Positions 26,040 through 37,615 of a stretch of DNA of 48,446 bases are shown one piece after another. The DNA lies in contig PAHR01000047.1 of assembly GCA_002705265.1 (NCBI GenBank), forward strand, positions 1 through 48,446, given 5' to 3'. Source of the DNA: Pelagibacteraceae bacterium (GTDB lineage: Bacteria > Pseudomonadota > Alphaproteobacteria > HIMB59). Below the pieces are notes generated by a model. That model saw nothing but the letters and a program-made list of their open reading frames with translations, was not told the DNA's origin and made no database searches. Position 1 is the stretch's first letter. Each line of letters opens with the position of its first letter. A program made the position numbers and the translations under genes.

Positions 26040-27110
26040 CTATAGTAAATAAATTGCTCCATGATCCCAGGAGCATTCAACTTCATCATCCCATTTAATG
26101 TTTAACTTTTCTGAAATAGAATTGTTTGCATGAAATACATAAAAATTACAATTATTGCTTTGAATTAAATACTTTGTATAGCTTCCTAAATAAGCTACTT
26201 CTTTAACTATACCAAAACATTTGTTTATCTCTTGAGTATTTTCTTTGATTTCATTTTTTTTAATCTTTATTTTTTCAGGTCTAATTAAGCATTGACTTTT
26301 ATCCAAAATATTTTTTGTTTGAATTTGAATATTTAAATCTGGTGAAAAATAACTCTCATTATTATTAGGGTTTTTTTCTAATTTAAATATATTTGCAGTG
26401 CCAATGAATTTTGCAATATATTCATTATTTGGTTTTTCATAAATCTCCACAGGATTGCCAATTTGTAAAACATTTCCATCTTGCATAATTGCCATTCTGT
26501 CTGACAAGGACATTGCCTCTTCTTGATCATGTGTAACAATTATGAAAGTTATACCAAGCCTATATTGCAAATTAACAAGTTCAAATTGTGTTTGTATTCT
26601 TAATTTTTTATCTAAAGCAGCTAGAGGCTCATCTAAAAGTAAAAGTTTAGGTTTCTTAACTAAGCACCTAGCCAAAGCTACTCTTTGTTGTTGACCTCCA
26701 GAGAGTTCATCTATTTTTCTATTCTCTAATCCATCGAGTTCGAGAAGTTTTAATATCTCGTCTGTCCTTTGATTTATAGTATTTGTGTCTAAACGGTCTT
26801 CTTTTAAACCAAAGGATATATTCTTAAAAACATTTAAATGGGGAAAAAGAGCGTAGCTTTGAAACATGATATTCAACGGTCTGTTATATGGTGGTAAATC
26901 TGTGATATCTTCACCATCAAGATAAATCCTACCTGAATCAGGTTTTTCAAAACCAGCTATAATTCTTAATAAAGTTGATTTTCCACAACCGGATGATCCA
27001 AGAAGACTAAATAATTCAGATTTTTTTATTTCTAAGGAAACATTTTTAAGAGCTTGAATATCATTAAAAGACTTTGAAACATTTTGAATTTTAAGGAAAC
27101 CTTCTTTCAT
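26040..27110 (-). CDS. potA: Polyamine ABC transporter ATPase PotA
   Basis: Nucleotide-binding subunit; 356 residues. Walker A is GSSGCGKST at 38-46, the signature is LSGGQQQRVALARC, Walker B is LLLLDEPLAALD, and the switch histidine is in IIVTHDQEEA. A TOBE-type regulatory domain follows from about residue 240 (IGTANIF, QCLIRPEKIKI, EVAYLGSYTKYL). The start follows a strong stem-loop that lies between potF and potA. No ribosome binding motif precedes the ATG. Confidence 0.95.
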   Translation of the reverse strand: MKEGFLKIQNVSKSFNDIQALKNVSLEIKKSELFSLLGSSGCGKSTLLRIIAGFEKPDSGRIYLDGEDITDLPPYNRPLNIMFQSYALFPHLNVFKNISFGLKEDRLDTNTINQRTDEILKLLELDGLENRKIDELSGGQQQRVALARCLVKKPKLLLLDEPLAALDKKLRIQTQFELVNLQYRLGITFIIVTHDQEEAMSLSDRMAIMQDGNVLQIGNPVEIYEKPNNEYIAKFIGTANIFKLEKNPNNNESYFSPDLNIQIQTKNILDKSQCLIRPEKIKIKKNEIKENTQEINKCFGIVKEVAYLGSYTKYLIQSNNCNFYVFHANNSISEKLNIKWDDEVECSWDHGAIYLL

Positions 27111-27120
27111 TGTAAAAGAG

Positions 27121-27158
27121 ATTAAAGCACTTCACAAATTAATGTGAAGTGCTTTAAC
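27121..27158 (-). terminator. Stem-loop between potF and potA (partial terminator or mRNA stabiliser)
   Basis: TTAAAGCACTTCAC at 27122-27135 pairs perfectly with GTGAAGTGCTTTAA at 27144-27157; one more A-T pair closes a six-base loop. On the minus strand the stem is followed by TCTCTTTT, an imperfect U-tract, then the potA start ten bases further on. Such hairpins after a binding-protein gene typically lower read-through and protect the upstream message, giving more binding protein than transporter. Confidence 0.75.
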
Positions 27159-27168
27159 ATAAATGTTT

Positions 27169-28242
27169 TTAGTTAGCTGCTTTAAAGCTATTAAATATTC
27201 TTGAAGATACTCTTGATTTTTGAGGGCTATCAGCTACGTCTGCAAATAACATTTTTAAAGTTTCTTCAGTTGGGTAAATAGCAGGGTCTTCTAAGATTTC
27301 AGCTTCTATTAAACCTTCAGTAGTATTCGCTACGAGGTTTGGATTAGAGTACCAAACATAGTTTGTAATCTCCGCTACAACTTCTGGCCTTAAAATATAG
27401 TCAATAAACTTATGAGCGTTATCAACATTTTTAGCATCAGCTGGTATTCCCATCATATCAAACCAAATAACAGTTCCTTCATTAGGGATTGAATACCAAA
27501 CAGAAACATCATCAGCGGCCTCATCAGCAGCTAGGAAAACATCTCCTGACCAACCAACAGCAAGGCAGATTTCTCCATTTGCCAGATCATCAATATACTG
27601 AGATGAGTCAAAGTATTTGATATAAGGTCTGATTTGTTTTAATAATTCTAACGCCTCATCATTAGCTTTTGAATTTTCTGTGTTTGGATCATGCCCTAAA
27701 TAATTTAATGCAATTTCAACAACTTCACTAGGAGCATCTAACATAGCAACTCCGCAGTCAGCATATTTAGCGATTTCTTCAGGGTTAAAAATTATATCCC
27801 AACTCTCGACGTCACCATCACGCTCTTCAACTGCATCCTCATTGTAGCCAATGCCAGTTGTACCATACATATAATTAACTGAATATAATCCTCCTGGATC
27901 ATGAGCTTCTGTTTTTGCTAAAACTGCTGGATCTAAATTAGATAAGTTAGATAATTTTGACTTATCAAGTTTTTGGAATACGCCAGCTTTAATTTGGTTC
28001 TCTAAAAAAGAACCTGAAGGCACAACTATGTCATAGCCACTATTTCCAGCTAATAGTTTAGCTTCTAATACTTCATTAGAATCAAAAACGTCATAGGTTA
28101 CATCTATGCCTGTTTCTTCTTCAAAATTAGCAATTGTATCTTCTGCTATATAGTCAGACCAGTTATAGATAAAAAGCTCATCTTTAGCATTGAGTGCCAA
28201 AGGAATGGTCATTCCTATAAGTAAAACAAAAAATTTTTTCAT
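27169..28242 (-). CDS. potF: Periplasmic putrescine/polyamine-binding protein (PotF/PotD family)
   Basis: Substrate-binding protein of the importer; 357 residues. A Sec signal peptide is visible (MKKFFVLLIGMTIPLALNA, cleavage near residue 19), followed by the family start DELFIYNWSDYIAEDTI. Other family stretches are FDSNEVLEAKLLAGNSGYDIVVPS and GEICLAVGWSGDVFLAADEA. PotF and PotD differ in ligand preference (putrescine versus spermidine). I favour PotF because of the adjacent agmatine-to-putrescine genes, not from specific ligand residues. A strong GAGGGG ribosome binding site precedes the start. Confidence 0.92.
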   Translation of the reverse strand: MKKFFVLLIGMTIPLALNAKDELFIYNWSDYIAEDTIANFEEETGIDVTYDVFDSNEVLEAKLLAGNSGYDIVVPSGSFLENQIKAGVFQKLDKSKLSNLSNLDPAVLAKTEAHDPGGLYSVNYMYGTTGIGYNEDAVEERDGDVESWDIIFNPEEIAKYADCGVAMLDAPSEVVEIALNYLGHDPNTENSKANDEALELLKQIRPYIKYFDSSQYIDDLANGEICLAVGWSGDVFLAADEAADDVSVWYSIPNEGTVIWFDMMGIPADAKNVDNAHKFIDYILRPEVVAEITNYVWYSNPNLVANTTEGLIEAEILEDPAIYPTEETLKMLFADVADSPQKSRVSSRIFNSFKAAN

Positions 28243-33692: not shown

Positions 33693-35173
33693 TAGTTAAT
33701 TTTAAAATCCTTTTTAATTAATTTTTCAACAACTTTAGCAGAAGAAAGGACTCCAGGAATTCCTGCTCCTGGATGGGAACCAGCTGCAGCAAAATATAAA
33801 TTTTTTAATTTTGGATCCTTGTTATGGTATCTAAACCATGCTGACTGACTAAATATAGGGGCAATAGAAAAACCTGCTCCGTGCATAGATCTGTAATCTT
33901 TCTTAAAATCATTCGGATCCATCCAAAAAACCTCTTCAATTACCTTTTCTAAATTTGGCAAAATAGTTTTTGATAATTCTGAAATTATCCTATCTTTTAG
34001 TCTTTCTCCCTCTCTATCCCAGTTAATACTACCCTGTAAGTTTGGAACAGGACACAATACATAAAAACTATCACATCCCTCAGGAGCAAAAGAAGAATCT
34101 GTGGCGGTTGGACGATGTAAATAAAGTGAAAAATCATCAGAAAGAGTTTTCTTTTCAAATATATCTTTAAGTAAATCTTTAAACCTCTCGCTTAACCATA
34201 TTGTATGATGAGCTACCGCTGGATATTGTTTTTTTGTTCCAAAAAATAATACAAACAGTCCCATTGAATACTGAATCATTGGCTCTGGTTTGAATGTTCT
34301 TTGAGGAAGTTTTGTTTTTATCATTTCTTTATAAACAGTAGGGGGATCTGCATTACAAATAATTGCATCAAATAAAATTTCCTTATCATTATTTAAAACT
34401 AGTGAATGGACTTTATCTTTTAAGGTAACAATTTCAGTTACATCAGTATTTTTCATAATATGAATTCCATTTTTTAAAGCTAATGACTCTAATTCATCTA
34501 TAATTTTACCTGTGCCGCCCATACAAAAATAAACGCCCCATTTTCTTTCCAAATAATGAATTAAAGCATAAATTGAAGTAGTTGTATGAGGATCTCCTCC
34601 GACTAATAATGGATGAATAGAAAAAGCTTTTCTAATAAATGGATTTTTTAAATATTTATTTACCAATGAACTAACTGACATATAACTTTGAAGAGATATT
34701 AAAGAGGGAATTTGCTTAATCATTTCCCAAAAAGAATGGAAAGATTTATCTGAAAGCTTAAGAAAACCAACATTAAAAATTTTTTTGGAGTGGTTTATTA
34801 ACTTTCTATAACCATCTGCATCCTTTTTAGAAAAACGCTCTATCTCAAGAATTGTATCTTCTATGGAGGGTTTGTAGTCAAACTGTTGCCCGTTATGAAA
34901 GTAAAATCTGTACCAAGGATCGAGAGATTGAAAATTAAGATAGTCTTCTAATTTTTCATCAAACAATTCAAACAATTCATTAAAAAGAAAAGGTGCTGTT
35001 ATTACTGTTGGTCCAGCATCGTGTTTGTAACCATTTCTATTAAAAACTCTAGCTCTCCCCCCTAGATCTTGAAGTCTTTCGATAAGTGTTACCTCAAAAC
35101 CAAGACTCTTCATTCTAAGTGCAGAAGCTATTCCACCAAACCCACTTCCAATAACTGCTATTTTTTTATTCAA
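33692..35173 (-). CDS. crtI: Phytoene desaturase (lycopene-forming)
   Basis: CrtI-type flavoprotein carrying out the successive desaturations from phytoene to lycopene. The 493 residues begin with IAVIGSGFGGIASALRM, followed by ERLQDLGGRARVF, YKHDAGPTVITAP and, near the end, FAAAGSHPGAGIPGVL, all diagnostic. The start is a TTG (35173-35171) giving MNKKIAVIG; no ATG or GTG lies in frame nearby and no ribosome binding motif precedes it. It follows the proteorhodopsin terminator by about 27 bases, so expression probably depends on read-through or a weak local promoter. Confidence 0.95.
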   Translation of the reverse strand: MNKKIAVIGSGFGGIASALRMKSLGFEVTLIERLQDLGGRARVFNRNGYKHDAGPTVITAPFLFNELFELFDEKLEDYLNFQSLDPWYRFYFHNGQQFDYKPSIEDTILEIERFSKKDADGYRKLINHSKKIFNVGFLKLSDKSFHSFWEMIKQIPSLISLQSYMSVSSLVNKYLKNPFIRKAFSIHPLLVGGDPHTTTSIYALIHYLERKWGVYFCMGGTGKIIDELESLALKNGIHIMKNTDVTEIVTLKDKVHSLVLNNDKEILFDAIICNADPPTVYKEMIKTKLPQRTFKPEPMIQYSMGLFVLFFGTKKQYPAVAHHTIWLSERFKDLLKDIFEKKTLSDDFSLYLHRPTATDSSFAPEGCDSFYVLCPVPNLQGSINWDREGERLKDRIISELSKTILPNLEKVIEEVFWMDPNDFKKDYRSMHGAGFSIAPIFSQSAWFRYHNKDPKLKNLYFAAAGSHPGAGIPGVLSSAKVVEKLIKKDFKIN

Positions 35174-35199
35174 TATTTTAAGAATATATGATTTTGGAC

Positions 35200-35234
35200 A
35201 AAAAAAAACCAGGCAAGAATAACTTGCCTGGTTT
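35200..35234 (-). terminator. Rho-independent terminator of proteorhodopsin
   Basis: A perfect 12-bp stem (AAACCAGGCAAG at 35206-35217 with CTTGCCTGGTTT at 35223-35234, loop of five) is followed on the minus strand by an uninterrupted run of Ts (A-run 35200-35208). It begins about 20 bases after the proteorhodopsin stop and ends before crtI on the same strand. It is the best terminator in the window. Confidence 0.93.
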
Positions 35235-35255
35235 GAATTATTAACTAAAAAGCTA

Positions 35256-36020
35256 TTATGCTTTTTTTGTTGAAGCAGTTGCTGCAGCCCAAATTACTGC
35301 AACGAAAGCAATCTTATTAACAACGTCAGCAATGTTATAGATAACATTTAATGAAGTTGCATCTGCACTGCCAGTTAAATATCCTAGGAAATAACCAAGA
35401 GGATAAATAGCCCAACCTACAGTCACAATCCATCTCATTGTGTTGAAGGCTGTTTGAACAGCAGCAGGAGCTTTATCGGCAGCTGTTTTACCAGCTTCAC
35501 CAGCAAAGATCTCATATAAGATATATGCCCAACCAGCAAGACCTACAATAAATCCTGCCCAAGCATTAATCATTCCAGCTTCACCCATATATCCAGCAAC
35601 TAACATTACTAGAGTACCAATTAATAGTCTCCAGAATATACCTGCGGATACAGCAGCAACAGCTGATAAGATTATGTAAAATTCGATCATTTGAAGTGGA
35701 ACTGTGATTAACCAGTCTACATATCTGTAAACAGTTGGTGTATCACCAGTTGTTACCCAAACTTCTCTCATATAGAAATAGTGAACAGCTGCAACTAAAC
35801 ATACTAGTCCACCTATTGCTAATGATGTCTTCCACTTGCCAGAAACATTATTAGTTTCTAGAAAGAAAAAGGCTGTAGCGGCTACCATACACATTGAGAT
35901 AACCCAAAATGAAATTCCCACAAAATCCGTTGGTTGTAGATTAGCTGAAGCTGAAGCTACACCTGGCAAAATAGCCATTACAGAAGTAGGAAGAATCATT
36001 TTTTTAAAAATTTTAAACAT
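35256..36020 (-). CDS. Proteorhodopsin, blue-absorbing type proton pump
   Basis: Seven-helix retinal protein of 254 residues, a light-driven outward proton pump. A signal peptide is present (MFKIFKKMILPTSVMAILPG, cleavage near ASA at 22-26). In RYVDWLITVPLQMIEF the proton acceptor is Asp102, Thr106 and the donor Glu113 complete the DTE pump motif, and His80 pairs with Asp102. The retinal Schiff-base lysine is Lys236 in VNKIAF. Gln110 corresponds to position 105 of the EBAC31A08 protein, where Gln gives blue (about 490 nm) and Leu green absorption. An AAGGAG site (36026-36031) lies five bases before the ATG. A strong terminator follows. The gene is less AT-rich than its neighbours, as expected for high expression. 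Confidence 0.97.
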   Translation of the reverse strand: MFKIFKKMILPTSVMAILPGVASASANLQPTDFVGISFWVISMCMVAATAFFFLETNNVSGKWKTSLAIGGLVCLVAAVHYFYMREVWVTTGDTPTVYRYVDWLITVPLQMIEFYIILSAVAAVSAGIFWRLLIGTLVMLVAGYMGEAGMINAWAGFIVGLAGWAYILYEIFAGEAGKTAADKAPAAVQTAFNTMRWIVTVGWAIYPLGYFLGYLTGSADATSLNVIYNIADVVNKIAFVAVIWAAATASTKKA

Positions 36021-36043
36021 GAGTACTCCTTATTTCTTAAAAT

Positions 36044-36077
36044 AATTAGAATCCATTTCTAGAATATGATTCTAATT
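36044..36077. promoter_or_regulatory. 34-bp concentric dyad before proteorhodopsin
   Basis: AATTAGAATC (36044-36053) is exactly mirrored by GATTCTAATT (36068-36077). At the same centre (36060/36061) sits a second palindrome, TTCTAGAA (36057-36064); only three bases on each side in between do not match. It lies downstream of the predicted proteorhodopsin promoter and 12 bases upstream of its ribosome binding site. It may be an operator for a dimeric regulator or a leader-RNA hairpin. Confidence 0.6.
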
Positions 36078-36111
36078 TGTTTAACTGCGACCGATTGTGC
36101 TTAAAATCTTC

Positions 36112-36120
36112 ATTATATCA
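36112..36120 (-). promoter_or_regulatory. Extended -10 promoter of proteorhodopsin
   Basis: On the minus strand these bases read TGATATAAT, that is TGn plus a perfect TATAAT. The start of transcription would be near 36105, leaving a leader of about 85 bases. A weaker overlapping alternative uses TTGCAA and TATGCT with a 17-base spacer just upstream. Confidence 0.6.
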
Positions 36121-36165
36121 AGCATAAAAATTACTTTTTATTGTTGCAAAAATAGATAAATTATT

Positions 36166-36385
36166 ATGAATATGGACATTTCAAATAGTACAGTTTTGAT
36201 AAGCGGACTAGGATTTTTCATATTTTTAGCCATTTTTTGGTATTTATTAAAAAAAAAACGCCGAATCTAAACTAAGTTCTAGACTCAAAAGATTTTCACA
36301 ATTTACCTTATTCCTGTTGATAATTTTATTAGTTATTTTGATATTTAAAAATCATTCATCAGAATTCATTGAAATGAATACTTAA
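36166..36385 (+). CDS. Small two-helix membrane protein, frame broken in a ten-A run
   Basis: From ATG 36166 the reading is 34 residues: MNMDISNSTVLISGLGFF, a membrane helix, then LLKKKRRI and a stop at 36270. A second open stretch in the next frame, without its own start, runs from the ten-A tract (36249-36258) to a TAA at 36383-36385 and encodes NAESKLSSRLKRF followed by another membrane helix (FLLIILLVILIF). Dropping one A joins both into a 71-residue protein with two helices. Its stop would share TTAA with lysE, as other convergent pairs here do. It is divergent from proteorhodopsin. I do not recognise a family. The region 36021-36165 holds the proteorhodopsin promoter and dyad. Confidence 0.5.
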
Positions 36386-36978
36386 ATTACTAAGTAAATT
36401 CCAGTAATTATCAGTAAAAAAGCAAATAAATACTCAATAAATAACTTTATTTTAGTATTATTAATAAATTCCTTTATGGAAGCACCAAAAAGAGCCCAAA
36501 GACTAATACAAGGAAGGTTTATGAGGGAAGCAAAAATAGATAAAAAAAGAAAAGCAATAATATAATTTTCCTGACTTGGATAAAATCCAGTTGTGACCGT
36601 AAGAGCAATTGTCCATGCTTTAGGATTAACCCATTGGAACATTGAAGCTTCAATAAATTTCAAAGGTCTTCCTGATTTGGCTTCATGATTTTTAATTGAA
36701 CCAATCATTTTCCAAGCTAGATAAAAGAGATAAAGTAAACAAATCCATTTCAAATAATCTTGAATAAAAGGGTATTCATTAAATATTGCTCCCAATCCGA
36801 AACATATAATTGAAATTTGAATTGCATGACCTATGGAAATTCCAAATATATGAGGCAAAGTTTTTTTAAAACCAAATTTAATGCCAGAAATTGTGAGCAT
36901 AGTATTATTTGGTCCGGGTGTTATGAACATCACAAAATAGTATGATCCTAAAGCTAATATTAGAGGTAAATCAATCAT
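36382..36978 (-). CDS. LysE/RhtB-family amino-acid exporter
   Basis: Inner-membrane exporter of about 198 residues with five to six hydrophobic helices and the family motif FITPGPNNTMLTISG near the N-terminus, followed by GFKKTLPHIFGISIGH. The central KFIEASMFQWVNPKAW segment is also typical. I chose the ATG at 36978 because it gives the normal family N-terminus (MIDLPLILALG) and clears gpmA; the upstream ATG at 37023 would overlap gpmA by 32 bases and add a Lys-rich stretch. Substrates of such exporters (lysine, threonine, homoserine and others) cannot be told from sequence. Confidence 0.88.
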   Translation of the reverse strand: MIDLPLILALGSYYFVMFITPGPNNTMLTISGIKFGFKKTLPHIFGISIGHAIQISIICFGLGAIFNEYPFIQDYLKWICLLYLFYLAWKMIGSIKNHEAKSGRPLKFIEASMFQWVNPKAWTIALTVTTGFYPSQENYIIAFLFLSIFASLINLPCISLWALFGASIKEFINNTKIKLFIEYLFAFLLIITGIYLVI

Positions 36979-36991
36979 TAGAAATTTTTCT

Positions 36992-37615
36992 TTAGTCTTT
37001 AATTTTAAAAATAGAGTTTTCAAAAATTATGTGTAAAGGGATTCCTGTTGATAATTCCACTTTATTAATTTCATTAACTTTATAAATTTCCATGATAATC
37101 AACAGAGCTCTCAAAGAATTTCCATGAGCTGCAATTAATATATTGTTAACTGATTTGTCTTCAATTTGGACTTTTATCTTATCATGAAAATATTTTGATA
37201 CTCTGCTAACTACATCCTCAAGACTTTCACCGCCTGGCGGTCTATCACTATAACCTCTTCTCCATTTGTGGACTTGTTCATCTCCATATTTATTTGCTGT
37301 TTCCTTTTTATTAAGTCCGGTAAGTTCTCCATAATCTCTTTCGTTAAGGGCTGAGTCTGAGATAATCTTATGACTACTATTTAAATCATCTAATTGACCA
37401 ATTTTATCTAAGATAATATTAGCTGTTTTTTGAGCCCTGTTTAATACACTTGTAAAAACAATGTCAAAAGAAAGGTTTAATTGAATAAACAAATCTGCTG
37501 CTTTTTTGGCCTCCAATATGCCCTCTTCAGAAAGTTCAACATTTTTAAATCCTGTAAATAAATTCAATTTATTCCATTCACTTTGTCCATGCCTAATTAA
37601 TAAAATATTTTTCAT
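36992..37615 (-). CDS. gpmA: 2,3-bisphosphoglycerate-dependent phosphoglycerate mutase
   Basis: Interconverts 3- and 2-phosphoglycerate in glycolysis and gluconeogenesis. The 207-residue protein has the phosphohistidine motif LLIRHGQSEWN (His9), ERDYGELTG and the second histidine in AAHGNSLRAL. Also conserved is RRGYSDRPPGGESL. The length fits the short dPGM form of Alphaproteobacteria rather than the ~250-residue E. coli form. It is divergent from fumC across 28 bases. Confidence 0.93.
   Translation of the reverse strand: MKNILLIRHGQSEWNKLNLFTGFKNVELSEEGILEAKKAADLFIQLNLSFDIVFTSVLNRAQKTANIILDKIGQLDDLNSSHKIISDSALNERDYGELTGLNKKETANKYGDEQVHKWRRGYSDRPPGGESLEDVVSRVSKYFHDKIKVQIEDKSVNNILIAAHGNSLRALLIIMEIYKVNEINKVELSTGIPLHIIFENSIFKIKD

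Follow-up and report, generated by a model that had tools for sequence, protein, structure and literature searches.

RppH and RNase E, the enzymes of established mRNA decay, both need a single-stranded 5' end, and ompA offers an example of a 5'-terminal stem-loop that stabilises its message. The review PMC3997798, which covers 5' structures, RppH and RNase E in mRNA decay, cites work in E. coli on further stem-loops of this kind, in papA and in bla fusions. Like these stem-loops, the hairpin described here is predicted to lie at, or a few nucleotides from, the 5' end of its message and upstream of a free-standing Shine-Dalgarno sequence, and the membrane protein encoded by that message is presumably abundant. 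Unlike them, it is known from sequence comparison alone and its host is a streamlined alphaproteobacterium. The proteorhodopsin leader in which it lies also resembles the cis-regulatory leaders of Rfam and the candidate structured RNAs of marine bacteria in that its structure is conserved with covariation, but differs from the Rfam leaders in matching no family at gathering score. Neither PMC2704228 nor PMC2864571, both on marine-bacterial candidate structured RNAs, uses the term rhodopsin in its text, and there was no work on RNA structure in a proteorhodopsin leader among the literature matches listed (titles and beginnings of abstracts, with no preprints and few subscription journals covered).

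The proteorhodopsin leader and its dyad

The window (the whole stretch of DNA analysed, 48,446 nucleotides) is AT-rich and comes from a genome of 28% GC. Its proteorhodopsin gene is encoded on the minus strand together with the following features.

35206–35234, minus strand: intrinsic terminator downstream of the proteorhodopsin gene, 12 pairs followed by a T run (terminator scan)
35256–36020, minus strand: proteorhodopsin gene, 254 aa (open reading frame; Pfam PF01036, E 1.4e-45)
36026–36031, minus strand: Shine-Dalgarno sequence AAGGAG
36037–36084, minus strand: whole predicted hairpin, with outer stem TTAAA/TTTAA, core stem, bulged A, inner UAUU/AAUG and loop CUAGA
36044–36077, minus strand: hairpin core, a perfect 10-bp stem AATTAGAATC/GATTCTAATT (predicted pairing probability 0.98–0.99)
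36085–36093, minus strand: CGGTCGCAG, a G+C-rich box directly after the −10 equivalent
36094–36099, minus strand: CACAAT, the putative −10 equivalent, from alignment with 19 other leaders
36112–36120, minus strand: TGATATAAT, the extended −10 of the first-pass annotation, overlapping TTGATA (36121–36116) and shared with leader L122

Read along the minus strand from 36121 down to 36018, the leader thus runs through TTGATATAAT, 11 bases and a G, CACAAT, CGGTCGCAG, the dyad, AAGGAG and TACTC to the ATG. Beyond the terminator lie an amine-oxidase/desaturase-like gene (PF01593) and a squalene/phytoene-synthase gene (PF00494), and the other flank carries genes for a LysE-type translocator, a histidine-phosphatase-family protein and a fumarase-like protein. 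Elsewhere in the window, at 27122–27157, a strong hairpin TTAAAGCACTTCACA...TGTGAAGTGCTTTAA separates two minus-strand genes which by eye are extracellular-binding-protein-like (27169–28242) and ABC-ATPase-like (26040–27110), and it is possibly an intercistronic mRNA-processing hairpin.

On the plus strand, 36044–36077 reads AATTAGAATC-CATTTCTAGAATAT-GATTCTAATT, the arms and spacer of a 34-bp dyad with outer 10-bp arms, as the first-pass annotation had described. The inner palindrome that it reported, TTCTAGAA, is found at 36057–36064 and shares with the larger dyad the centre 36060/36061, and there are indeed 12 nt between the 34-bp dyad and AAGGAG (36031–36026 on the minus strand). A repeat search extends the dyad to 24-nt arms (36037–36060 and 36061–36084) which are 79% complementary. 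The GATTC of the dyad falls in the 3' arm of the RNA, and the outer stem TTAAA/TTTAA of the predicted hairpin has a pairing probability of 0.66–0.68.

Paired changes in the leaders of relatives

Within the family (HIMB59-like Alphaproteobacteria), 44 of 52 genomes have a proteorhodopsin of at least 74% identity; among the remaining eight, seven have a 46–48% paralog alone and one has no match, the genomes being partly incomplete. Among the 44 leaders there are 21 different sequences, compared from the −10 to a start codon which, for fetched leaders, was picked by a simple script rule. A hairpin folds between the promoter and AAGGAG in every one of these 21 leaders, with fold z values from −1.6 (L122) to −4.9 (L120). 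The margin over shuffled sequences is modest for L005, L122 and L124, whose fold is matched by 16, 18 and 11 of 300 shuffles, respectively. The sense strand is better folded than the antisense strand in 16 of the 21 leaders (mean 0.94 kcal/mol), and the antisense strand in the other five, by 1.5 kcal/mol in L124. The window and L122 (from genome G023, and the same locus as L061) share a common leader type in which the stem extends inward as far as the loop, CUAGA or CUA.

Covariation was assessed for a stem of 11 pairs on an alignment (A1) built from sequence without reference to structure, in which the register of L001, L004 and L121–L124 is imperfect. Overall, 85.7% of the stem cells are paired and six of the 11 pairs have changed on both sides. 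The covariation of the stem is 0.304 compared with 0.143 (sd 0.022) in shuffles, none of 500 of which attains the observed value, and it is at most 0.141 when the stem is slid along A1, a comparison that favours the stem over its slid controls in that the 11 pairs were derived from the main leader type in the same alignment. When arms were swapped among nine representatives, cognate combinations averaged −9.57 kcal/mol and permuted ones −5.85 kcal/mol, with none of 20,000 permutations as good, although the cognate arm is the best partner in only six of the nine. Intermediates in the 13 leaders of clean register are G-T (six cases) and never A-C; across all 231 stem cells there are 15 G-T and two A-C, plus 31 other mispairs. 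On the gene tree (18 of the 21 leaders, those with a full gene), one pair appears as A-U, G-U or G-C in scattered places, so that several separate changes preserved that pair.

The first-pass annotation had proposed looking for paired changes in close relatives and had named an absence of conservation as the outcome that would speak against the dyad. In the genus the stem is instead kept by compensation and, folding in 21 of 21 leaders with covariation reached by 0 of 500 shuffles, it behaves as a stem-loop that is stable as RNA and kept by selection. We take the conserved leader RNA to be a new element that represents a known kind of device.

Leaders of other groups, with relatives outside the family taken from a list of the best 80 of 585, were compared over a fixed stretch from −72 to −16, which misses the hairpins of L121, L123 and L124 because they lie further upstream. 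In this stretch the 21 leaders of the genus have a mean z of −2.34, with 13 below −2. The corresponding values are 0.30 and one for the sister family (34 distinct of 40 fetched leaders), −1.43 and 12 for a set drawn from other Alphaproteobacteria plus a few further sources (39 distinct of 46), and −0.51 and two for controls from the own genome (n = 16 only). A hairpin as a general property of proteorhodopsin leaders can be rejected, since the sister family is without such structure, and it follows that proteorhodopsin in general does not need the device. The second rhodopsin paralog has no counterpart either, its 20 leaders yielding no match to the covariance model, to ATCC-N5-12-GGAT or to GAATC-N6-16-GATTC.

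The same collection contains other structured or palindromic segments. At 36021–36031 (minus strand) a palindromic Shine-Dalgarno-spacer segment occurs throughout the genus, as GGAGTACTC in 18 of the 21 distinct leaders and as GGAGTAGTACTC in the other three. Type A leaders (e.g. L007, L111 and L112) have a second small hairpin, AAGTT-N4-AACTT, right before the Shine-Dalgarno sequence; it is present in 12 of the 21 distinct leaders. L111 has the G-U form GAGTT, and in L002 and L003 the loop is 5 nt long. Upstream of proteorhodopsin in six leaders (L070, L075, L076, L079, L081 and L094), a stem AATTAG/CTAATT that does not vary encloses 6–8 nt of loop and is located 7–10 nt after TATTCT, similar in place to the window hairpin and unrelated to it in sequence. 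Of the 46 leaders collected outside the family, 13 (L077, L085, L088, L091, L093, L095, L099, L103, L104, L105, L107, L108 and L109) have an invariant hairpin TCTAGC-AGTT-GCTAGA upstream of proteorhodopsin. Eight of the 46 (L069, L071, L074, L082, L087, L090, L096 and L102) contain a loop-free palindrome CGTTCTAGAACG a little before the Shine-Dalgarno sequence, of which L065 and L072 have a CTGG variant; this palindrome would be a better DNA-operator candidate than the window dyad. The palindrome CTCAACGTTGAGGAG of L066 and L083 overlaps the Shine-Dalgarno site and may form a sequestering hairpin. Lastly, GTAAGGAAACAAACTATAAGGAG precedes the start codon in 25 of the 40 sister-family leaders (L131–L170), which do not have the hairpin of the window.

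Position of the promoter and the 5' end

The first-pass annotation had assigned an extended −10 to TGATATAAT. The sequence is present on the minus strand, but it is doubtful that it serves as the −10, because the relatives place CACAAT there: in both MAFFT modes and in a further alignment, the TATAAT/TATACT of the 19 other leaders falls opposite CACAAT in the window and in L122. The sequences that follow agree with this placement. CGGTCGCA/CCGACGCA of the window/L122 aligns with the GCGTCGCA/CCGACGGA that L121, L123 and L124 have after their −10, and in L122 CCGACGCA comes directly after CACAAT. The eight bases after the aligned −10 include six G+C in all five of these leaders (the window and L121–L124), as against two to three after the TATAAT of the earlier call, and this G+C-rich box may be a discriminator of the kind found at stringently controlled promoters. 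TTGATA precedes CACAAT by 16 nt, about where a −35 would be, and TTGATA-N16-CACAAT matches at 9 of 12 positions in a promoter scan whose total is at chance level (7 compared with 6.0).

The hairpin starts 7–11 nt after the −10 in 19 of the 21 leaders, and 9 nt (window) or 15 nt (L122) after CACAAT. Measured from the TATAAT of the earlier call, it would start 27 nt (window) or 33 nt (L122) downstream. The earlier promoter call is questionable because the relatives put CACAAT (36099–36094) at the −10. Initiation may also occur upstream or in tandem, since CACAAT makes a poor −10 and TGATATAAT matches an extended −10 perfectly. With the hairpin about 7–15 nt after the −10 in every lineage, we infer that it sits at or next to the 5' end of the transcript, and for the window this 5'-terminal position would hinge on the choice of promoter.

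Function of the leader hairpin

These comparisons give a little better than an even chance that the dyad encodes an mRNA 5'-leader stem-loop, conserved in the genus, which serves as a 5'-end stabiliser and mainly as a constitutive booster of expression. From what is understood of mRNA decay, protection of the message against RppH and RNase E is its most likely function. The hairpin would be positioned at or beside the transcript 5' end and, because both enzymes require that end to be single-stranded, would hinder them there. The short single-gene message, with a terminator hairpin at its other end, would be stabilised as a result, and expression would be raised mainly in a constitutive manner. 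A 5' stem-loop combined with a terminator hairpin would be the anatomy of a stabilised transcript, and RNase E/G proteins are encoded in all five genomes checked. The hairpin probably helps the message to persist or to be translated, rather than docking a repressor.

Less probable, though the best placed of the alternatives, is a hairpin under regulation, in which a protein, a small RNA or a physical signal acts on the stem-loop and sets translation or decay. It would account for GATTC in the 3' arm, which is invariant in all 21 distinct leaders while other stem positions drift, and it is also consistent with the five leaders that have a G+C-rich box following the −10. Against it, the loop sequence varies among relatives, and the stem ends 5–33 nt short of AAGGAG, leaving the Shine-Dalgarno site outside. 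AAGGAG is predicted to be unpaired with values of 0.58–0.68 in type A leaders and L002–L004, 0.77 in L122, 0.34–0.44 in L121, L123 and L124, and 0.20 in the window, where it is predicted to pair with the coding sequence rather than with the hairpin. Known regulators give it no help: Rfam returns five matches up to E 1 in 35000–37000, none at gathering score, and CsrA is absent from five of five genomes. Two specific candidates were rejected on these grounds, namely a known RNA family and control by CsrA, and a Shine-Dalgarno-sequestering switch or thermometer is disfavoured because AAGGAG lies outside the conserved stem. A more elaborate version, in which the G+C-rich box promoter and 5' hairpin form a genus-wide cis-regulatory RNA and a partner acting in trans recognises the invariant GATTC arm, seems to us rather unlikely.

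We consider it similarly improbable that a dimeric repressor or activator reads the palindrome in double-stranded form, as its DNA operator. The first-pass annotation had left the choice between an operator and an RNA hairpin undecided; the paired changes in the genus argue for the second and, together with the searches described below, against the first. The dyad does resemble the operators of dimeric transcription factors in being an inverted repeat near a promoter, and the symmetry of the window copy would suit a dimer. What keeps the operator reading alive is a mostly constant half-site spacing, 11 nt in 16 of the 21 distinct leaders (39 of the 44 genomes). However, the remaining five have spacings of 9 (two), 10, 12 and 14, the last being the window, and this variability is only a modest argument, one that would apply mainly to the window. 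The behaviour of the arms is more telling, in that their sequence is not kept and they drift together through G-U rather than A-C intermediates, which favours an RNA stem because a dimer reading the duplex would not easily allow such drift. Half-sites conserved in both sequence and spacing were therefore not found.

Nor were further sites found at other promoters. In the own genome GAATC-N8-18-GATTC occurs nine times and the reversed control pattern eight, so the check for the dyad at other promoters proposed by the first-pass annotation showed no enrichment. A covariance model gives matches (E up to 0.1) in 42 of the 52 genomes, one in each, and all 42 sit 28–51 nt upstream of the proteorhodopsin gene; the seeds of the model match by construction, and the informative part is the absence of other matches. 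No second site was detected in the 52 genomes under filters strict enough that weak sites could be lost. Six proteins scanned around the dyad include no regulator, and a dedicated regulator with a single site may still be conceived under the single-site result.

Lower again in probability, and confined to the window, is the reading that its dyad arose by chance in an AT-rich leader and is unrelated to the hairpin of the relatives. Perfect dyads with 10-bp arms and a 3–20 nt loop number 60 in the 350,172 bases examined (the window and 20 stretches of its own genome), nine of them within 120 nt upstream of an ATG open reading frame of at least 100 aa, and the window has 12 where 5.0 (sd 2.3) are expected from 40 Markov simulations of it. 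Given these counts the dyad taken alone is only mildly unusual and not compelling. With filters off, the window copy also scores weakly against the model (16.9 bits, E 0.54) and ranks fifth within the window, and the genome-wide search with the covariance model missed both this copy and G023. On the other side, the same place is occupied by a hairpin with covariation in 21 of 21 distinct leaders, the window leader aligns with the others through CACAAT, the G+C-rich box and AAGGAGTACTC, and its 111 nt fold better as RNA than 200 of 200 shuffles (z −2.93). We accordingly base the proposed membership of the window copy on position, GATTC and leader homology, and not on model score.

It is very improbable that the leader contains a transcription attenuator or an intrinsic terminator: its hairpin is followed by an AT-only stretch, but the dyad lacks the G+C-rich stem and T run of the class (two of 10 core pairs are G-C and no T run follows the stem), and a terminator scan of 35150–36400 gives 35206–35234 only.

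To our knowledge, little is understood of what sets the expression of proteorhodopsin in streamlined ocean bacteria. The covarying RNA element provides a defined, concrete target for studying it, and the comparison among relatives yields a proposed correction of the promoter position. With a stabilising leader hairpin as the preferred reading, the question moves from which repressor binds the dyad to how the message gets protected or read. If the hairpin were in fact a cis-regulatory RNA read in trans, a streamlined marine bacterium would be setting its light-driven proton pumping after transcription.
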